A DNA stretch of 54,777 nucleotides, taken from NCBI RefSeq assembly GCF_944387245.1, contig NZ_CALXEE010000005.1, positions 1 through 54,777 on the forward strand, written 5' to 3'. The notes beneath the pieces were generated by a model, which did not search any database, had not been told where the DNA came from, and worked only from the letters and a program-made list of their open reading frames with translations. Each line of letters starts with the position of its first letter. Within the stretch, counting starts at the first letter, position 1. Of the stretch, positions 4,613 to 11,818 are shown piece after piece. The translations under genes were made by a program, and so were the position numbers. Origin of the DNA: an uncultured Intestinimonas sp. GTDB taxonomy: Bacteria > Bacillota > Clostridia > Oscillospirales > Oscillospiraceae.

Positions 4613-5773
4613 TCACTTCTGTAAAAGCCCGTCGCACAGCTCCAGAGCACGGAGGGCGATGGCGTCCATGTTGTAGTATTTATACTCGGCCAGCCGCCCC
4701 AGCAGGTGGAGGTCACCGCAGCCCTCGGCCAGGGCCCGGTACTGCTCATAGAGGGCGTTGTTCTCCGGGTTGATGATGGCGTAGTAGGGGGTCTCGCCCG
4801 CCGCGCCGGTATAGGCCCGGGAGTACTCCTTCATGATGGTGGTCACCCCGGGCAGCTCCTGGCCGGTGAGCTGCTTGTACTCGGTGATGCGGGTGTAGTC
4901 CTCGCTCACCGTATAGTTCACCGTGGCCGCCGGCTGGAACCGGTCCATGGCCAGGGTCTCAAAGCCGAAGTCCAGGGTACGGTAGGGCAGACGGCCGTAC
5001 CGGAAGCCGAAGAGCTCGTCCACCTGACCGGTGTAGATCACCGTCCCTGTGAAGGGCTCGCCGTCCAGCTTGATGCCGCCCTCGGTGAGCGCCAGCCGGT
5101 CCCGGGCGTCCACCCCCAGCTCCACGGTGATGTTCGGGTGGTCCAGGATCTTTTGGAACATGGGGGTGTAGCCCTCCAAAGGCATGCCCTGGTAGGGGTC
5201 CTGGAAATACCGGTCGTCCCGGCTCAGCAGCACGGGCACCCGGGCGGTGGTGGCCGGGTCGATCTCCTCAGGCGTCTGTCCCCACTGCTTCATGGTGTAG
5301 TGGACAAAGACGTTTTCATACACGTAGTCGGCCACCGCCTGGATCTCCGGGTCGTCGTTCTCCCGCAGCTTCAGAATGGTGACCCGGGCGCCCTCCCCGT
5401 AGGCGGCGAGGAGCTTGTCCTCCAGCCGCTGGGCCTGCTCGGCCGGGAAGGCCATGTGGAGGGAGGTCAGGTTAAAGGGGACGGGCATGTACGTGCCGTG
5501 GACGTTGGCCAGCACCCGGTGCTGGTAGTCCCGCCACTGTGTGAACCGGCTGAGCCAGTCGTACACCCGCTTGCTGGCGGTGTGGAAGATATGGGGCCCG
5601 TACTGGTGAATGAGCACGCCGCTTTTGTCCAGGCAGTCATAGGCGTTGCCGCCCACATGGTCCCGGCGCTCCAGCACCAGCACCCGCTTTCCGCCCCGCT
5701 CGGCCAGCTCCCGGGCCGCCACGGCGCCCGCATAGCCCGCGCCGATCACCAGACAGTCAAAGGTCCGCTCCAT
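4613..5773 (-). CDS. glf: UDP-galactopyranose mutase
   Basis: 386 residues, standard length. This FAD enzyme interconverts UDP-galactopyranose and UDP-galactofuranose. The N-terminal dinucleotide-binding motif GAGYAG (residues 11-16) is followed by VLERRDHVGGNAYD and YGPHIFHTA, all hallmarks of Glf. The central MKQWG, RDDRYFQDPYQGMP and VIYTGQVDELFGFRYG blocks match the substrate and flavin sites, and the C-terminal GRLAEYKYYNMDAIA block is also typical. It is first of a two-gene unit with a GT2 enzyme, indicating galactofuranose-containing surface glycan. Confidence 0.96.
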   Translation of the reverse strand: MERTFDCLVIGAGYAGAVAARELAERGGKRVLVLERRDHVGGNAYDCLDKSGVLIHQYGPHIFHTASKRVYDWLSRFTQWRDYQHRVLANVHGTYMPVPFNLTSLHMAFPAEQAQRLEDKLLAAYGEGARVTILKLRENDDPEIQAVADYVYENVFVHYTMKQWGQTPEEIDPATTARVPVLLSRDDRYFQDPYQGMPLEGYTPMFQKILDHPNITVELGVDARDRLALTEGGIKLDGEPFTGTVIYTGQVDELFGFRYGRLPYRTLDFGFETLAMDRFQPAATVNYTVSEDYTRITEYKQLTGQELPGVTTIMKEYSRAYTGAAGETPYYAIINPENNALYEQYRALAEGCGDLHLLGRLAEYKYYNMDAIALRALELCDGLLQK

Positions 5774-5910
5774 CCGTTGTCCTCACTTTCTCCGCCTCCG
5801 CCCTTCGGCAAAAAGAGGCGTGTATTCCTGTCAATGGTCTATATTTTACCACAGGAAAGTATAAAAGGGAACGAAAAAAGTCTTAAGGTTTGATGAAAAT
5901 ACCGCCCCGC

Positions 5911-6483
5911 TCAGCGGTTGGAACTAGGCTTTCCGACGGAGTTTCGGGTCACGCCCAGGAAGCTTTCGCTGTAATGCTCCATGGCCCGCTGGATGACCTC
6001 CACGGCGGCCTTCCGGTCGCTGACGTCGCCGGCTACGGCCTCCTTCCCCTCCAGCGCCTTGTAGACCGAGAAGAAGTGGGCCATCTCGTCAAAGATGTGG
6101 GCGGGCAGCTCCCAGATGTCGTTGTAGTTGTTGTAGGTGGGGTCGGAGAAGGGGATGGCGATGATCTTCTCGTCGTTCTTCCCGCCGTCCAGCATGGAGA
6201 TGAAGCCGATGGGATAGACCCGCACCAGGGTCAGGGGGTCCATGGCCTCGGAGCAGAGGACCAGCACGTCCAGCGGGTCTCCGTCGTCGCCGTAGGTGCG
6301 GGGAATGAAGCCGTAGTTGGCGGGGTAGTGGGTAGAGGTGTGGAGGACCCGGTCCAGGATGATGAGGCCGGTCTCCTTGTCCAGCTCATACTTCTTCTTG
6401 CTGCCCTTGGGAATCTCAATGACGGCCACAAAGTCCTCGGGCTTGATGCGGTCAGGGCTGATATCGTGCCAGATGTTGGACAT
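5911..6483 (-). CDS. ppa: Inorganic pyrophosphatase (family I)
   Basis: About 190 residues, typical for bacterial soluble PPase, which hydrolyses PPi to drive biosynthesis. The family signature DGDPLDV is at residues 67-73, and flanking KKYELDKETGLIILDR and NYGFIPRTYGDD are conserved active-site segments. The ATG at 6481-6483 follows AAGGAG by about 12 bases; an in-frame extension upstream has no RBS and reads unlike protein. Apparently monocistronic. Confidence 0.95.
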   Translation of the reverse strand: MSNIWHDISPDRIKPEDFVAVIEIPKGSKKKYELDKETGLIILDRVLHTSTHYPANYGFIPRTYGDDGDPLDVLVLCSEAMDPLTLVRVYPIGFISMLDGGKNDEKIIAIPFSDPTYNNYNDIWELPAHIFDEMAHFFSVYKALEGKEAVAGDVSDRKAAVEVIQRAMEHYSESFLGVTRNSVGKPSSNR

Positions 6484-6604
6484 GAGGACACGCTCCTTTT
6501 CTTTCTGAATCTCTGCCGGGCCAGGCGGCCCGGAACAGTTGTCCAGTTTATTATACCTGCTTTTCACTGGAAATACAACCGCACCCCCCACCTGTGTGAG
6601 ACAG

Positions 6605-6652
6605 AAAAAGGTAGGCGGGCGGCGCAAAATGCGCCGCCCGCCTACCTTTGAT
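6605..6652 (-). terminator. Strong terminator after the tlpA-like gene
   Basis: A 17-bp perfect GC-rich stem (AGGTAGGCGGGCGGCGC and complement), loop AAAAT, followed on the minus strand by a run of T. It ends the ccdA-tlpA transcript. Confidence 0.9.
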
Positions 6653-6662
6653 TCTGATGGAT

Positions 6663-7268
6663 TTACTCCTGGAGATGGATCAGGTCCAGTCCCTTTTGCA
6701 GGGTGTCCCCATCAATGGCCCCCACCGCCCTGGCCACTACGTAGCCCTCGGCATCAATGAAATAGGTGGTGGGCAGGGAGTAGGCACCGTAGGCCATGGC
6801 CGCCTCCGACCCGGTGTCAAAAAAGACCGGGAAGGAGAAGCCCTGCCCCTCCACGTACTCCTTGGCGGTGTCCACCGTCTCCCGGGCGCCGTCGGTCATG
6901 TTGACCATGAGGAACTGGACCTCACCGTCCAGCTCCTCCCAGGCCTCATTGAACTCCGGCATCTCGCTCTTGCAGGGAGAGCACCAGCTGGCCCAGAAGT
7001 TGAGCACGATGGGCTTGCCCACATAGTCGGAGAGCCTGACCTCCTCCCCGTCGGCGTCCTCCACGGTGAAGTCGGGGGCCTCTACCTTGGGGGGTTCGCT
7101 CTCCTGGGCGGGCTGGCCGCTCTGGGCGGGCGGGGTGGTGGGATCGGCCTGCACCGACAGCTGCTCCGGCTTTGCGTCGGCGCTGAGGCGGCTATATAGT
7201 ACAGAGGCGCCGCCGATGAAGAGGACGAACACCAGTACCAGGATCCAGACGGAACTTTTTTTCTTCAT
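6663..7268 (-). CDS. Membrane-anchored TlpA/ResA-like thiol-disulfide oxidoreductase
   Basis: 201 residues. An N-terminal signal anchor (VWILVLVFVLFIGGASVLY) precedes a Pro/Gln/Thr-rich linker and a thioredoxin-fold domain from about residue 62. The redox motif is C96-S-P-C99 in FWASWCSPCKSEMPEF, with the cis-Pro at SLPTTYFID. Such proteins reduce or isomerise extracytoplasmic disulfides using electrons delivered by CcdA. The gene follows ccdA by 15 bp on the same transcript, which supports that pairing. The substrate is unknown; no cytochrome c maturation genes are nearby. Confidence 0.9.
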   Translation of the reverse strand: MKKKSSVWILVLVFVLFIGGASVLYSRLSADAKPEQLSVQADPTTPPAQSGQPAQESEPPKVEAPDFTVEDADGEEVRLSDYVGKPIVLNFWASWCSPCKSEMPEFNEAWEELDGEVQFLMVNMTDGARETVDTAKEYVEGQGFSFPVFFDTGSEAAMAYGAYSLPTTYFIDAEGYVVARAVGAIDGDTLQKGLDLIHLQE

Positions 7269-7283
7269 GATGACGCATCCTCC

Positions 7284-7946
7284 TCAGCTTAGCACTTCCA
7301 GCAGGCGGCCCAGGGTGCCGGTGGCCATGAGCACACCGATGAGCACCAGCAGGGCGCCGCTGACCAGGTTGATGACACGGTAGTTGCGCTTGATCCAGTC
7401 AAAGGTAGACTTGAGCCTGTCGATGAGCACGGCGCTGAGCAGGAAGGGGATACCCAGGCCCAGGGAGTAGACCAGCAGCATGGCCATGCCCTCCAGCACG
7501 TGCCCCTGCTGGGAGGCCAGCAGCAGCGCCGAGCCCAGGAAGGCCCCCACACACGGGGTCCAGCCCAGAGAGAAGATGACGCCGAAGACCACTGCGGAGA
7601 AGAAGTTCATGCTCCCCGCGGCCCTGCCGTGTCCGCCGCCCTGGAAGAAGGGGAGCTTCAGGACCCCCATGTAATTGAGGCCGAACAGAATGACCACCGC
7701 GCCGGAAATCACGTTCACCGCGGTCTGGTGGCCCTTGAGGAAGCCCCCCACCGTCCCGGCCAGGGCGCCCATGGCCACAAAGACCAGAGTAAAGCCCAGC
7801 ACGAAGCCGGCGGCACCGGCCAGGGTCCGGCGGGTGGTCCGCTCGCCGCCCCCGGCGAAGTAGGTGATGTAGATGGGCAGCATCGGCAGCAGGCAAGGGG
7901 AGATGAAGGTGATGATCCCTTCCAGGAAGGAGATCAGATACTGCAT
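7284..7946 (-). CDS. ccdA: CcdA-type thiol-disulfide electron transporter
   Basis: 220 residues with about six membrane helices. It carries electrons from cytoplasmic thioredoxin across the membrane. The two conserved Cys are in ISPCLLPMLPIY (C18) and GWTPCVGAFLGS, each next to a Pro, as in the CcdA/DsbD-beta family. The RBS is AGGAGCG before the ATG. It is the first gene of a two-gene operon with the TlpA-like thioredoxin and is transcribed divergently from a Crp/Fnr-type regulator. Confidence 0.93.
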   Translation of the reverse strand: MQYLISFLEGIITFISPCLLPMLPIYITYFAGGGERTTRRTLAGAAGFVLGFTLVFVAMGALAGTVGGFLKGHQTAVNVISGAVVILFGLNYMGVLKLPFFQGGGHGRAAGSMNFFSAVVFGVIFSLGWTPCVGAFLGSALLLASQQGHVLEGMAMLLVYSLGLGIPFLLSAVLIDRLKSTFDWIKRNYRVINLVSGALLVLIGVLMATGTLGRLLEVLS

Positions 7947-7989
7947 GTTGTCACGCTCCTTTTGTTGTCTCGCTCCCGCCCAGGCGGGA

Positions 7990-8018
7990 TGACAGCGGGA
8001 CCGGATCTGTGGTACAAT
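7990..8018 (+). promoter_or_regulatory. Possible promoter of the Crp/Fnr regulator gene
   Basis: TGACAG (7990-7995), 17-bp spacer, TACAAT (8013-8018) on the plus strand, about 110 bases before the ATG. The -10 is good and the -35 weak, as expected if an activator is used. Confidence 0.4.
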
Positions 8019-8045
8019 GGCTTCGTCCGGCGGCGCTGTTCCCCC

Positions 8046-8073
8046 ATTATACCGAAAGCGCTCTGCCTGTCAA
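8046..8073 (-). promoter_or_regulatory. Promoter of the ccdA operon
   Basis: Minus-strand TTGACA (8068-8073), 16-bp spacer, TATAAT (8046-8051): both hexamers are consensus. It sits inside the leader of the divergent regulator gene, so the two transcripts overlap. Confidence 0.8.
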
Positions 8074-8129
8074 GGGGCGGATTTCCCCCGTGCAGGGCCG
8101 GACGATCTCAACCGGGCGGAGGTATCGGC

Positions 8130-8786
8130 ATGGATCTTTCCAACGTCTTTCCCTTCTGGGAGAAGCTCACAGAGGAACAGCGGCAGCGGCTCACCGGCGG
8201 GGCCGTCCTGCGGACGGTGAAGGCCGGGGCCCTGCTCCACCAGGGCGGCGACTGCCAGGGCCTGCTGGCGGTACGCACCGGCCAGCTGCGGGCCTATATC
8301 CTCTCCGACCAGGGCCGGGAGATCACCCTCTACCGTCTCTTCGAACGGGACATCTGCCTGTTCTCCGCCTCCTGCCTCTTGCGGAACATCCAGTTCGACG
8401 TCACCATCGCCGCCGAGAAGGACACCCAGCTCTGGGTGATCCCCTCCGACATCTACCAGTCTCTCATGGAGGAGTCGGCCGCCGTGGCCAACTACACCAA
8501 CGACCTCATGGGCAGCCGTTTCTCCGAGGTCATGTGGCTCATGGAGCAGGTCATGTGGAAGAGCTTTGACGCCCGGCTGGCCGCCTTTCTGCTGGAGGAG
8601 AGCCTGCTGGAGGGTACGACCTCCCTCCACCTCACCCACGAGCGCATCGCCAACCACCTGGGCACCGCCCGGGAGGTGGTCACCCGGATGCTCCGCTATT
8701 TTCAGGGCGAGGGGATGGTCCGCCTCACCCGGGGCACCGTGGAGCTCACAGACCCGGAGCGCCTCCGCCGCCTGAGTCAGGCCTGA
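8130..8786 (+). CDS. Crp/Fnr family transcriptional regulator
   Basis: About 218 residues: a cyclic-nucleotide-binding-type beta roll (roughly 10-125), dimer helix, then a winged HTH (LTHERIANHLGTAREVVTRMLRYF) with the Crp-type recognition helix. It lacks the N-terminal Cys cluster of classical FNR but has two close Cys in RDICLFSASCLL plus one in GGDCQGLL, which could respond to redox or bind a metal; this is inference. The ATG at 8130 follows GGCGGAGG. It is divergent from ccdA-tlpA and convergent with the Fe-S membrane protein/ferredoxin pair, so it is the probable regulator of both. Confidence 0.88.
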   Translation: MDLSNVFPFWEKLTEEQRQRLTGGAVLRTVKAGALLHQGGDCQGLLAVRTGQLRAYILSDQGREITLYRLFERDICLFSASCLLRNIQFDVTIAAEKDTQLWVIPSDIYQSLMEESAAVANYTNDLMGSRFSEVMWLMEQVMWKSFDARLAAFLLEESLLEGTTSLHLTHERIANHLGTAREVVTRMLRYFQGEGMVRLTRGTVELTDPERLRRLSQA

Positions 8787-8790
8787 GCCG

Positions 8791-9372
8791 TCACACCTCC
8801 GTCTTCTCCCGGTTCCGCGCCTTGCAGATAAGCTGGGTCATGGTGCCCATGGGGCAGTAGACACACCAGGACCGGGGCTTGAAGAGGATCATGGTGAGAA
8901 AGCCCAGCACCGTGGAGGTGAGCATGACGCTGTAAAAGCCGAAGGCAAACTGGGCCACCCAGGGCGTCACACCGCCGGAATAGGCCCAGTGCCAGGGCAG
9001 CCGGAAGGTCCACAGCAGGGTGACCACCTGCCTGAGGTCCTGGGCGCCGCTGAACACCAGGAAAGTTGTCCACAGCATCTGGAAAAACATCGCGAAGAAA
9101 AAGATCAGAAAACCGTACCGGAAGGCCTTGCTTTTGAGCCACCGGGGCACGTCCTTCCGCCTGGAAAGGCCGAAGCGGCCGCCCACCAGAGCGAAGAGCT
9201 GGCCCCGGCCGCAATAGCGGTTACAGTAGCCCTTGTTCCCCCCGATGATGGCGATGAGGAGGGGGATAAAAAAGCACAGCAGTCCCAGCCATGCGAACAG
9301 GATGTTGAAAAATCCCAGAATGAGATACGTCAGGGACAGAACCCACAGATAGTCGTACCAGTGCTTTTTCAT
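8791..9372 (-). CDS. NapH/YccM-like 4Fe-4S membrane protein
   Basis: 193 residues with about four membrane helices. Cys pairs occur in GNKGYCNRYCGRGQLF (after helix 2) and WCVYCPMGTMTQ (near the C-terminus). This is the layout of the polyferredoxin-like membrane domain of NapH, CcoG and YccM proteins, which pass electrons between quinone or membrane carriers and soluble ferredoxins. It is shorter than NapH because it lacks the C-terminal double 4Fe-4S domain. That domain is encoded separately by the overlapping upstream gene (9369-9581), so the two probably form one complex. Confidence 0.82.
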   Translation of the reverse strand: MKKHWYDYLWVLSLTYLILGFFNILFAWLGLLCFFIPLLIAIIGGNKGYCNRYCGRGQLFALVGGRFGLSRRKDVPRWLKSKAFRYGFLIFFFAMFFQMLWTTFLVFSGAQDLRQVVTLLWTFRLPWHWAYSGGVTPWVAQFAFGFYSVMLTSTVLGFLTMILFKPRSWCVYCPMGTMTQLICKARNREKTEV

Positions 9373-9581
9373 GCCCCCACCTCCCGGATCTCAATGACGG
9401 TGGCGGGGCACTCCTTGGCGCACTTGCCGCAGCCCACGCAGCGCCCCTCGTCCACCCGGGCCGCGATGCCCTTCACCACGGCGATGGCCCCAAGGGGACA
9501 CACCTTGACGCAGCAGCCGCAGGCCACACAGTCCCCCGTGGACACAAAGGCCCTGCGGCGTCTTCTCTCCGTCTTTTCCAT
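9369..9581 (-). CDS. 2[4Fe-4S] ferredoxin
   Basis: 70 residues with two classic CxxCxxCxxxCP motifs: C18/C21/C24/C28 and C48/C51/C54/C58. The basic N-terminus (KTERRRRR) is unusual for a free ferredoxin and may contact membrane lipid or its partner. It overlaps the next gene by 4 bp, a sign of translational coupling. With the NapH-like protein it looks like a split version of a single membrane polyferredoxin. Confidence 0.92.
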   Translation of the reverse strand: MEKTERRRRRAFVSTGDCVACGCCVKVCPLGAIAVVKGIAARVDEGRCVGCGKCAKECPATVIEIREVGA

Positions 9582-9868
9582 CCATAACCGCCTTTCCGCC
9601 GCCGGGCTTCCCCCGGCGGCCTAAACTGGGAATGCGCTTCGTTCTGATTGTATAGCCTATCAGGTTTTTCAATGCCTTACCGTGACATTGTCACCATGGT
9701 ACAAAAGCGCGCCTCATTTTTCCGTCCAGCCGGGTGGCGGTCCCCTGCCCTATGGCGTTCTGCTGGCCGAGGATGTCGATCACAGAGGTTCTGTGCGCTC
9801 CCGCCTCTTGCCCCATAACAGGCAGTGACCTCCTTTACAAAATTTTATACATTTTTTCACAAAACCTA
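9582..9868. other. Intergenic region before the ferredoxin gene, with palindrome
   Basis: No gene seen. On the minus strand there is a -10-like TATACA/TACAAT (9647-9654) and, just upstream, GTGACA-T-TGTCAC (9682-9694), a perfect 6-bp-arm palindrome. A GC stem (GCCGCCGGG / CCCGGCGGC, about 9598-9622) lies in the ferredoxin mRNA leader. The palindrome is a candidate site for the nearby Crp/Fnr regulator, because its GTGA/TCAC half-sites are of Crp type, but the spacing is compressed. Confidence 0.4.
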
Positions 9869-9897
9869 TTGACATTTTATCGTCTGTATTGTACTAT
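9869..9897 (+). promoter_or_regulatory. Consensus promoter of the non-coding RNA unit
   Basis: TTGACA (9869-9874), exactly 17 bp, TACTAT (9892-9897). The surrounding 9840-9900 is AT-rich, unlike the neighbouring genes. The predicted start is near 9904. This is among the best promoter matches in the window, implying strong transcription. Confidence 0.85.
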
Positions 9898-9903
9898 ATA
9901 GCC

Positions 9904-10280
9904 AGAAAGGATGAGGTGAGTCCGATGTACTGATCGGTACCAGGCAAGGGTCCTTATCCCGGGTGTCAAACCTAGGTGGCGCCCACCGCGTTGAAGATTC
10001 CAGCAGAAAGAAAAAGTCCCCTACGCAGCAAGTTCCCCAACAAAGCTCACTGAAGTGAGAATGCACACGGCAAACCTCAAGCGAAATATCGCGGACGACG
10101 GAACCGAATGTGTCACAGCTTGTTCGAGTGGTAACTGCACAGCAAAGGTCTTTTTCCCGAGCGATGGATTTTGAGCGCGTTAAAAATCCGTAGAAAGTCA
10201 GAGGTACACAATTTGGTAGAAATTCAGAATCAGCTGTAGCCCCCCGGTCACGTTGGATGGCCGGGGGGTTGTGTTGTTTT
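9904..10280 (+). ncRNA. Candidate structured non-coding RNA, about 375 nt, class unknown
   Basis: A strong promoter and an intrinsic terminator bracket about 340 bases with no credible reading frame, lower GC and many small hairpins: CCGAT/ATCGG (9922-9937), GGTGG/CCACC (about 9975-9987), CTCAC-TGAA-GTGAG (10046-10059), GCGA-AATA-TCGC (10081-10092), GGATTTT/AAAATCC (about 10166-10189). Long-range pairs TGAGGT (9912-9917)/ACCTCA and GGTAC/GTACC are possible. A near-exact 13-base direct repeat GTAGAAA(G/T)TCAGA occurs at 10190 and 10216. A-rich single strands (AGCAGAAAGAAAAAG) join the helices, as in large folded RNAs. Hallmarks of RNase P RNA, tmRNA, SRP RNA and T-boxes are not visible. It may belong to a known Rfam family (raiA or another Firmicutes RNA) that I cannot identify by eye. 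Confidence 0.7.
10240..10280 (+). terminator. Terminator of the non-coding RNA
   Basis: CCCCCCGG (10240-10247), 13-base loop, CCGGGGGG (10261-10268), then TTGTGTTGTTTT. Orientation is plus only, which fixes the strand of the RNA. Confidence 0.85.
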
Positions 10281-10307
10281 CTGAGCCAACGTATCTCCCA
10301 CGATAGA

Positions 10308-10347
10308 CAAAAAGTGCCCGGACCGCTCAAATCGGTCCGGGCACTTT
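10308..10347 (-). terminator. Terminator after the HD-GYP/HPt operon
   Basis: AAAGTGCCCGGACC stem with nine-base loop and full complement; on the minus strand it runs into TTTTTG. It ends the minus-strand transcript that faces the ncRNA unit. Confidence 0.88.
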
Positions 10348-10367
10348 GCTTTTCCACAGTTTGGGCA

Positions 10368-11435
10368 TCACTGCCTCAAGGCCTCACGCAGCTGCTGCCG
10401 CTCCCCATTTAGAAGCTCATACATCTCTCCGGTGATGACGCTCCCCACTTCGCCCGCCATGGTGCGGATGCCTCGGTCCAGCGCATCCTCGTAGCCCTGG
10501 TAGTAGTGGAGATAGTGCTGGAGCCGCAGGGCGGTATGCACCAGCATGGCGCTCAGCGGCGCGTCGCCCTCCGTATCCTGAGGCCAGCCGGACCCATCGG
10601 CGTTCCTGTGGTGCCAGAGCGCGATCTCCGCCCCATATCGGAGCAGGGGCACGTCCTCCTCCGCCGTGAGGAGCTCATGGCCCAGGGCAGTGTGGCGGGG
10701 GTCCCCCTCCTCCTGAGGGCTCTCCGGATCGGGCAAGCCCAGCATGCCAATGTCGCAGAAGGGCGCCGCCATGCCGATGAGAGCGGCGTCAAAAGTGGTC
10801 AAGGGCCCCTCCGGGTGTGCCTCGGCATATGCCTTGGCCAGGCAGGCGGTGAGCGCCCCCAGCTGACGGCAGCGCGCCGGGTCCAGAACGGGGCGGAATC
10901 GGCAGAACCGCTCCAGTTTCCCGAACCAACGCCGGGCCAACACCTCCGACTCCTCCAAGGTCAGGTCAGAGACCAGGAGGCCCCGTCCGGGTACCTCGGC
11001 CGGTCGTGAGTTCTCCTCCTCCTTGGGATGGTCCAGAATGGTGGACCTGGGCGGCCAGGATTTCCGCACCACATCGCATACTCGCTCCTGGACCGTGTGG
11101 GGGTCCACCGGCTTTACCAGAAAGTCCGCCGCCCCCCGCTCCACACTGGAACGCACATCCTTTTCATTGGCGTCAGTGGTGATGAGGATCACCGGCAATT
11201 CTGACGTGTCCCGGTCCAGCTGGAGCTGGTGGAGGACGGCGAAGCCGGCTCCCCGCCGGCCCAGGCAAATGTCCAGCAGCACGGCACAGATGCGGTCCCG
11301 GTCGTGTTTGAGGTATGTAAGCCCCCGGTGAGCATCCAGCACGCACTCCACCCGAAAGTGGTGCTTGAAGATCTCATTTAAAATGGCCAGATCCAGCTCA
11401 GAGTCATCGATCACCAGCAGTGTGTCCCGTATCAT
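10368..11435 (-). CDS. Response regulator with degenerate HD-GYP domain
   Basis: 355 residues. The N-terminal receiver (about 1-130) is intact: D10/D11 acidic pocket, phospho-acceptor D55 in AVLLDICLG, Thr in ILITT and Lys in FLVKPVD. The C-terminal half resembles an HD-GYP domain, the class that cleaves cyclic di-GMP, but key residues differ: FCDIGMLGLP replaces the usual LHDIGKIGIP, so the HD His is Cys and the Lys is Met, and HHRNADGSGWP replaces HHE.WDGSGYP. Cyclic di-GMP hydrolysis is therefore doubtful; it may act as a binding or signalling module. It overlaps the HPt gene upstream by 4 bp. Confidence 0.8.
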   Translation of the reverse strand: MIRDTLLVIDDSELDLAILNEIFKHHFRVECVLDAHRGLTYLKHDRDRICAVLLDICLGRRGAGFAVLHQLQLDRDTSELPVILITTDANEKDVRSSVERGAADFLVKPVDPHTVQERVCDVVRKSWPPRSTILDHPKEEENSRPAEVPGRGLLVSDLTLEESEVLARRWFGKLERFCRFRPVLDPARCRQLGALTACLAKAYAEAHPEGPLTTFDAALIGMAAPFCDIGMLGLPDPESPQEEGDPRHTALGHELLTAEEDVPLLRYGAEIALWHHRNADGSGWPQDTEGDAPLSAMLVHTALRLQHYLHYYQGYEDALDRGIRTMAGEVGSVITGEMYELLNGERQQLREALRQ

Positions 11436-11818
11436 GCCCGGGCCCCCTCTCCAAAATATCCTTCAATCAGCGCCGCGACGTGCTCGCTCTCCCGCTTGGC
11501 CTCCCAGGTGAGCGCGGTCAGCTTGTTCCTGTGCTGGAACCGGGACGCCCGGAACTCCACCAGGATGGCCTGGGCACAGTCGTGGATGGGCGTGAGGCCC
11601 AGGTTGCCCGTCAGGCCCTTCAGGTTGTGGACGCCGAGATAGAACGCCTCCTCGTCCTCCTCCCCAAGCGCCCGGAGGATGTCCTCAAAATGCAGCTGTC
11701 CCGGCAGCTTTGCCAGGAAGGAGAGGTACAGCTCCTCATTGCCCATGAAACGGTCCAGCGCCTGCCGGACCTGGATGCCGGATGCCTCCAGCAGCTCCAG
11801 AAATGTCTGTTTTTCCAT
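11432..11818 (-). CDS. Histidine phosphotransfer (HPt) domain protein
   Basis: 128 residues, a single HPt four-helix bundle. The phospho-His is H64 in VHNLKGLTGNLGL, the classic H-x-LKG-x-x-x-N-x-G pattern. It should relay phosphoryl groups between a hybrid histidine kinase and a response regulator. The overlapping downstream gene encodes a receiver protein, a likely partner; no kinase is encoded within this window, so the phosphodonor must be elsewhere. Confidence 0.88.
   Translation of the reverse strand: MEKQTFLELLEASGIQVRQALDRFMGNEELYLSFLAKLPGQLHFEDILRALGEEDEEAFYLGVHNLKGLTGNLGLTPIHDCAQAILVEFRASRFQHRNKLTALTWEAKRESEHVAALIEGYFGEGARA

Follow-up and report, generated by a model that had tools for sequence, protein, structure and literature searches.

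SgrS/SgrT and RNAIII are dual-function small RNAs, and Bacillus has STAB-SD leaders, in which a ribosome at the initiation stage protects the RNA from exonuclease attack at its 5' end. For short coding units, phage lambda bar was taken here as the toxic type of minigene. The toxicity of minigenes, which proceeds via peptidyl-tRNA drop-off, was tied to a short length, a strong Shine-Dalgarno sequence and a UAA stop codon by earlier experiments cited in the excerpts of PMC8708949. The same excerpts describe the natural two-codon minigene of axe-txe as acting in cis, with protection of the mRNA as the proposed role and with no toxicity upon overproduction (PMC8708949). Among large RNAs, OLE RNA is described in the excerpts of PMC12054373 as carrying a mimic of the Shine-Dalgarno/anti-Shine-Dalgarno duplex which is bound by bS21. 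A search of open-licence papers, mostly judged from listings, returned no paper describing the RNA reported below.

The locus lies in a 54,777-nt stretch of DNA from an uncultured Intestinimonas sp., hereafter the window, in which a sequence-only reading had proposed a plus-strand RNA gene of its own, possibly of a new class. This proposal was borne out by the absence of a matching Rfam family, by the presence of homologues and by covarying helices. We are highly confident of the anatomy, which is a stand-alone RNA with two micro-ORFs (ORF1 and ORF2), its own promoter and its own terminator (Table 1). The predicted plus-strand RNA is about 370 nt long and lies between two minus-strand genes, one for a 4Fe-4S ferredoxin and one for a response regulator. 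The latter (10368-11818) encodes a receiver protein of 355 aa with no other Pfam domain and adjoins a gene for an Hpt-domain-like protein of 128 aa, just below the Pfam cut-off; the two proteins are likely a phosphorelay pair.

Table 1. Positions in the window of the RNA gene, its parts and the adjoining hairpin.
Feature	Position	Strand	Basis
A/T box TTTTTTCACAAAA, upstream of -35	9852..9864	+	by-eye reading of relatives' promoters
Promoter TTGACA-17-TACTAT	9869-9897	+	sequence; promoter-like-site scan
Predicted RNA 5' end AGAAAGGATGAGGTGAGTCC, extended Shine-Dalgarno of ORF1	9904..9923	+	comparison with relatives; duplex prediction
ORF1, ATG TAC TGA (Met-Tyr-stop)	9925-9933	+	relatives; stop-spacing test
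Variable middle, folded in the window	9934..10191	+	13 type-A elements
Closing helix	around 9987-10001/10166-10179	+	three pairs kept in 13-element consensus
Possible helix	10028-10036/10130-10138	+	appears only in 11-element comparison
Hairpin	10045-10059	+	middle fold
Helix	10063-10070/10104-10113	+	middle fold
Hairpin	10081-10092	+	middle fold
Shine-Dalgarno of ORF2, AGAAAGTCAGAGGT	10192..10205	+	alignments A1, A2
ORF2, TTG GTA GAA ATT CAG AAT CAG CTG TAG (8 sense codons)	10213-10239	+	relatives; frame tests
Terminal hairpin/terminator	10235-10273	+	terminator scan; alignment A1
Second terminator hairpin	10311-10347	called on minus; stem readable either way	terminator scan

The promoter was present as the sequence-only reading had described it, as were the TGAGGT/ACCTCA pair and the near-repeat at 10190/10216. 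The site scan returned 2 promoter-like sites versus 0.5 in shuffles, and 3 terminator-like sites on both strands versus 0.8. Promoters of relatives, for which spacers of 16-18 were allowed, also mostly have a 17-nt spacer. A box similar to the A/T box of the window was seen in many type-A relatives (consensus atttt.ca.AAAA), and may be UP-element-like or the site of a factor. In many type-B elements (e.g. L108, L111, L161 and L213) a box like TTTCTGTGTTTTGCATAAA followed by TTTTGTACAAAAT was read by eye before the -35, with a weak computed consensus. This type-B box may be the site of a regulator, which would then tell when the RNA is made; by eye, it was not shared by 12 promoter-like sites before 16S genes. 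The first terminator hairpin was listed on the plus strand only, as had been claimed, and its U-tract in the window is weak. The second hairpin probably belongs to the opposite-strand response-regulator gene and is possibly shared with the RNA.

With the Rfam 15 covariance models, the window gave 0 matches at the gathering score. At E<=10, seven sub-threshold matches were obtained within 9700-10400, of which one (twister-P3) was inside the RNA, with 16.8 bits where the gathering score is 39.9 (E 2.3); 12 loci searched at E<=1 gave 9 matches, none within the element. The families raiA, 6S, OLE and ROOL, which the sequence-only reading had named for comparison, as well as tmRNA, SRP and RNase P, were rejected as identities, as none gave a covariance-model match. 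RNase P RNA had at first resembled the window RNA in its length and in scattered motifs. Kinship with it was dropped for two reasons: no model matched, and a normal RNase P is encoded elsewhere in the genome, an ordinary type-A RNA of 270.6 bits on another contig (G000:C14:21686-22044). The dense folding that had been read as the sign of a structured RNA was not exceptional in the single sequence (z -1.27), with 11 of 100 shuffles folding at least as well. An open frame of 163 aa antisense to the RNA (9866-10357, minus) was rejected as a gene: over the length of the RNA it was broken to 55-67 codons in 3 of the 13 type-A elements, the differences in 12 relatives produced 14 stops, and its substitution score (+0.15) showed no in-frame bias compared with the other two antisense frames (+0.27 and +0.23). 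This frame probably reflects the purine-rich sense strand.

The predicted 5' end of the RNA, at a start site placed from the promoter, is able to base-pair along the full 16 bases of the 16S tail GGAUCACCUCCUUUCU if two bulges are allowed in the RNA strand. Of 3000 windows drawn at random from the contig, 3 gave a duplex as strong as the predicted one (-20.5 kcal/mol). For 65 distinct 5' ends the median was -15.7, and 89% fell in the strongest 5% of random windows. The tail GGATCACCTCCTTTCT was taken from ten 16S genes of relatives, two further listed sites not being 16S; the mature 16S end was assigned at GGATCACCTCCTTTCT on the assumption that it corresponds to that of Bacillus subtilis.

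In the relatives, a start codon follows this 5' Shine-Dalgarno by a few bases and a stop codon comes almost at once. Among 100 distinct elements, 91 had the stop one or two codons past the ATG, which makes ORF1 two or three sense codons long; the other two frames showed this spacing in only 3 and 5 of the 100. The elements used were full-length and had been selected by promoter, Shine-Dalgarno and ATG, the stop playing no part; they include loci from a pattern scan for ORF2, and ORF1 lies outside that pattern. Promoter and ORF1 were found in 102 of 204 candidates, five of which were spurious and left out, and the ORF1 statistics therefore describe only the half with a recognised 5' end. A longer ORF1, of 7 to 29 codons beyond the ATG, was present in 9 of the 100 (L009, L010, L131, L133, L136, L171, L178, L220 and L256, the promoter of the last being perhaps misplaced). 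The second codon was TAC in 50 of the 100, GGC in 12, AAC in 9 and TTC in 8, with others in the remainder; as the codons are mixed (TAC, GGC, AAC and TTC, then AGG and AAG), no single tRNA would be trapped. Stop codons of the 93 short ORF1 among the 102 elements were TAA (69), TAG (15) and TGA (9). A two- or three-codon length and a strong Shine-Dalgarno, the marks of a minigene, were thus both found in ORF1. Since these, together with UAA as the commonest stop, are features linked to minigene toxicity, they support a minigene reading. The claim of the sequence-only reading that the RNA lacks a credible frame was therefore wrong at small scale, both micro-ORFs being conserved in relatives.

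The middle of the RNA is variable. A consensus of 13 type-A elements, the window's included, has 36 pairs over the whole RNA, of which 8 were changed on both sides; its covariation term was only -1.54. It comprises the terminator, a hairpin CTCAC/GTGAG, a helix GCACACGG/CCGAATGTGC around a GCGA/TCGC hairpin and, from a closing CGCG helix, three pairs. Promoter, ORF1 and ORF2 were all found in 140 of 215 distinct candidates, and in 10 of these 140 only 41-71 nt separate the start codon of ORF1 from that of ORF2; three of the ten are closely related. The middle is about 30 nt or less in L196 and in one copy of L123, and L267 lacks it, being made up of three Met-Phe-Arg minigenes with ORF2 and the terminator. 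The folded middle, which had been seen as the point of the molecule, is accordingly its variable part. Two or three ORF1 units were present in 10 of 217 elements by a strict pattern which recognised no unit in 70 of the 217. The AUG-AUG intervals of the repeated units were 43-48 nt in 10 of 12 cases, and 59 and 169 nt in the others.

The constant core of the elements is a promoter, an extended Shine-Dalgarno, a two- or three-codon ORF, a Shine-Dalgarno, a seven- to ten-codon ORF and a terminator. Reasoning from the observed features, frames, pairing, conservation and tandem units to transcription, translation, trans action and purpose, we infer a twin-minigene RNA, a self-contained micro-mRNA which loads ribosomes and acts in trans; this reading as a whole is tentative, and we place it a little short of an even chance. 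The strong promoter would yield an RNA whose first 20 bases zip onto the entire 3' tail of 16S rRNA. A ribosome would load at the extreme 5' end, read the two or three codons of ORF1, and either terminate or shed a very short peptidyl-tRNA. A second ribosome would load on ORF2, make a peptide of 7-10 residues and halt with its footprint reaching into the terminator stem. Between them, the middle would fold as a spacer, and may also hide or expose both ribosome sites. As no gene is consistently placed for service in cis, the RNA would most likely act in trans, occupying initiating ribosomes and yielding drop-off products, as a ribosome counterpart of 6S RNA in which repeated minigene units, mostly 43-48 nt apart, might serve like parking bays. 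That these elements form a new gene class of free-standing ribosome-trapping RNAs, with one to three minigenes and a 7-10-codon ORF, which damp or store initiating ribosomes in trans, is a more specific proposal and a doubtful one. Against the mechanism stand the patchy presence of the gene, the longer ORF1 of 9 in 100 elements, the mixed codons of ORF1 and the unexceptional ORF2 Shine-Dalgarno of the window. ORF2 moreover shows conservation at the peptide level, for which a simple ribosome sink would have no use, and the natural minigene described in the excerpts of PMC8708949 acted in cis and was harmless in excess.

The main rival to engagement of ribosomes in trans is protection of the RNA, with ORF2 yielding a functional peptide. 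On that view the ribosome site at the 5' end and ORF1 would only shield the RNA from 5' exonuclease, and the useful product would be the ORF2 peptide or, in the more elaborate members, the folded middle. The position of the extended Shine-Dalgarno at the predicted very 5' end, the conserved residues of ORF2 and some covarying pairs in the type-A middle are all consistent with this, and protection of mRNA by ribosomes on minigenes has been proposed (excerpts of PMC8708949). Protection, however, needs neither a fixed ORF length nor tandem units, and both were seen. Furthermore, the folded middle is missing or nearly so in the three compact elements described above, and in our judgement a 7-10-residue peptide that lacks an export signal would make a poor secreted signal. 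We consider this rival less likely than not, while giving it real weight.

In the window the peptide of ORF2 is TTG-VEIQNQL, and in relatives it is often MLDIKSEQK-like; in the literature search, MLDIK occurred solely in a mathematics paper. The near-repeat at 10190/10216 has two roles, its first copy being the ORF2 Shine-Dalgarno and its second forming ORF2 codons. The Shine-Dalgarno contains an invariant GAAAG in alignment A1 and an invariant AGAAAG in alignment A2, both of which were selected with filters on this motif, and that of the window was matched in strength by 493 of 3000 random windows. Among hits of R1, a covariance model of the 3' part, which were unselected by frame although some were the model's own training sequences, 47 of 51 carried, behind a Shine-Dalgarno, a frame made of a start codon, 7-10 further codons and a stop (shuffle mean 7.4, highest of 200 shuffles 14). 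The same arrangement was present in 18 of 18 class hits (shuffle mean 3.1, highest 8). Starts among the 47 were TTG (22), ATG (17) and GTG (8), and stops TAG (30), TAA (13) and TGA (4). The four misses were L083, with six codons, L087, with no standard start codon, and L088 and L092, in which the frame is visible by eye and the script did not recognise the Shine-Dalgarno. A one-base deletion in L111 gives an ORF2 of 11 codons.

Codon-type substitution was examined in the two alignments. A1 was chosen by motif with no frame criterion and holds 22 stretches (L034:1179-1265, which is spurious, and L035, a near copy of L033, were left out, and L027 and L028 were added); 21 of the 22 rows have a start and an in-frame stop at the aligned column, and the remaining row is shifted by one codon. 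A2 was chosen from frame-bearing elements (37 stretches, 33 used), and its start-plus-stop count of 32 of 33 is therefore circular. The BLOSUM excess of changed codons over chance in the ORF2 frame was +1.37 in A1 and +1.14 in A2, compared with +0.02, -0.10 and +0.01 (A1) and +0.29, -0.09 and -0.54 (A2) for frame 1, frame 2 and the reverse strand. Indels of three bases occur in both alignments. In the column-shuffle control, A2 passed (z 4.3) and A1 failed (z -0.9), and frame 1 of A2 also exceeded its shuffles (z 5.0); it is thus the contrast between frames, the shuffle aside, which carries the claim that ORF2 is coding. A conserved peptide, as expected of a dual-function RNA, is accordingly encoded by ORF2, present in 47 of 51 R1 hits with an in-frame substitution bias.

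These results bear on the possibility that the RNA is purely structural and non-coding, of a new class, with the frames as by-products of conserved sequence. The promoter, the terminator and the covarying helices would suit such an RNA, as would the failed column shuffle of A1 and the excess in frame 1 of A2. Against it stand the frame-specific spacing of the ORF1 stop, the three-base indels, and the occurrence of ORF2 far above shuffles with three kinds of start codon and three of stop codon. The sequence-only reading had itself named a conserved frame with codon-type substitution as what would refute a purely structural RNA, and this was found for ORF2, alongside the conserved length of ORF1 in 91 of 100 elements. 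We consider this explanation very improbable.

The ORF2 stop codon sits in the base of the terminator stem, and stop codon and opposite arm change together (TAA/TTA, TGA/TCA, TAG/CTA), the codon remaining a stop. In A2, which is type-B, the 15-pair stem was 96.2% paired, with changes on both sides in 12 of the 15 pairs, and its covariation score was reached by 0 of 500 shuffles; the structure was derived from the same alignment, in which 25 to 50% of cells paired when partners were slid by one to three columns. In the window the loop of this hairpin is CGTTGGA (10251-10257). A GGA was kept in the loop of 22 of 22 A1 rows (CGTTGGA, CGCTGGA, CATTCGGA), of which 20 were selected with this motif. 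The loop of a terminator needs no particular sequence, and the GGA loop may bind a protein.

A stop codon within the terminator stem would also fit the leader (attenuator) of a downstream gene, in which translation of ORF2 would melt the terminator and let transcription read through. For 137 elements, the next downstream ORF shared the strand of the element in 58 cases and was read from the opposite one in 71 (ORFs of 70 aa or more, called mechanically, in loci of 6 kb or more), and no consistently linked downstream gene was found among them. No gene is thus consistently placed to be served in cis, and a cis-regulated neighbour was rejected on this strand split. The window lacks a same-strand gene downstream that could be so regulated, its next gene being on the other strand and behind a second terminator. 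An attenuator is, on this evidence, highly unlikely.

Among elements preceded by 1.2 kb of sequence, 27 of 52 of type A and 0 of 131 of type B have a SpoVAC gene (PF03862) on their own strand within 2 kb upstream (1 type-A and 15 type-B elements were too short to judge); the window copy has none. Little SpoVAC was seen in the downstream survey because that survey used loci of 6 kb or more. The SpoVAC position marks an orthologous place in part of the family and says nothing of function. SpoIVA was present in 75 of 78 genomes compared, carriers and non-carriers alike, and being near-universal it allows no conclusion on a link to sporulation. The element lies near metA in several loci, including two in complete genomes, L326 (G168; 5561-10127) and L327 (G275; 5700-9101), where a 16S gene follows downstream on the same strand, behind metA, at 2.7 kb and 1.6 kb, respectively. 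A 16S gene was located 9.6 kb from the element in G372, and no 16S-tail match was found within 10 kb of it in G001, G087, G137, G296 or G358.

The blastn search for homologues that the sequence-only reading had suggested was productive: 10 of 11 genus genomes, counting that of the window, and 22 of 300 family genomes gave matches. R1 extended this. In the family it hit 172 of 400 genomes, spread over 57 of the 106 genera sampled, and in the order 61 of 394, where the hits ended in a weak tail. This tail holds false positives: among 20 hits that were read, L117 (E 0.0019) was unlike an element, and the order-level hits L106 and L112 had no recognisable ORF1. A second model, R2, matched 31 of 371 class genomes at E<=0.01, and 18 of the 371, all outside the order, at E<1e-9. 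The third model, R3, matched 2 of 363 phylum genomes at E<=0.001, one being the window itself and the other (L347) unconfirmed. No element with the ORF2 pattern was found at L347, at the R3 hit L345 or at the weak class hits L279, L280 and L282; L269 was missed by the element pattern, yet has ORF2. The class of elements is so far confined to Clostridia, apart from the one unconfirmed phylum hit. R3 was also applied to 38 near-complete genomes that R1 or R2 had scored negative, and 37 still lacked the gene; its presence is thus patchy, and it is no core part of translation. The ORF2 pattern scan gave at least 117 loci (L143-L259), whose ORF2 counts are biased and which were kept out of the ORF2 tests; carriers among the matches listed include Oscillibacter valericigenes, Candidatus Flavonifractor merdigallinarum and Candidatus Faecousia species. 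The element of O. valericigenes An907 is among those with a long ORF1.

Most of 15 genomes searched held one copy and G201 held seven, these numbers being lower bounds, as R2 was blank in 3 of the 15, all of them R1 carriers. In G201 (C56, C76; L123, L124), five of the seven copies lie on one contig within 3 kb, and in three of these five the two start codons of the copy are 41, 159 and 186 nt apart. Such multiple copies and the patchy presence could suggest a mobile or phage-derived element multiplying in the chromosome, an explanation we regard as scarcely tenable given the orthologous place behind the SpoVAC gene in 27 of 52 type-A elements, the absence of an exact ORF2-pattern match in viral contigs, and the absence of a blastn match to the window copy in phages and plasmids at E<=0.01.

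Genes of this kind are likely missed by gene finders and RNA finders alike, as the frames are too short for the former and the constant parts are coding, which defeats the latter. If trans action on ribosomes proves true, the RNA would represent a natural and widespread use of minigenes, those of the literature in the excerpts considered acting before another gene, and it would offer a simple handle on the tuning of translation in gut Clostridia. The weaker reading would still define a conserved family of peptides of 7-10 residues, with R1 matches in over half of the sampled genera of one family.

In comparison with known systems, an RNA gene with two micro-ORFs as its constant content was not found in the literature searched. 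The natural minigenes described in the excerpts of PMC8708949 act before another gene. RNase P RNA, alike at first in length and motifs, is represented in this genome by an ordinary type-A copy elsewhere. SgrS/SgrT and RNAIII are, like the present RNA, peptide-encoding RNAs; here, unlike in those, the peptide has 7-10 residues, a further ORF of just two or three codons is present, and it is the non-coding middle that varies. Lambda bar and the toxic minigenes share with ORF1 a length of two or three codons, a strong Shine-Dalgarno and UAA as the commonest stop (excerpts of PMC8708949). In contrast to bar, the present RNA is a gene of its own with promoter and terminator, has two ORFs and no consistent target in cis, and is conserved through Clostridia. 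The axe-txe, LEE and ycbK leader minigenes are likewise natural minigenes with ribosome sites, but these stand before another gene and act on that gene in cis, according to the excerpts of PMC8708949. The raiA/ModT, OLE and ROOL RNAs are also RNA genes of Firmicutes (excerpts of PMC11706538, PMC12286853 and PMC12054373), whereas the present RNA matches no covariance model and its constant core is coding. The Shine-Dalgarno-duplex mimic of OLE RNA, as described in the excerpts of PMC12054373, provides a parallel to the engagement of the ribosome proposed here.
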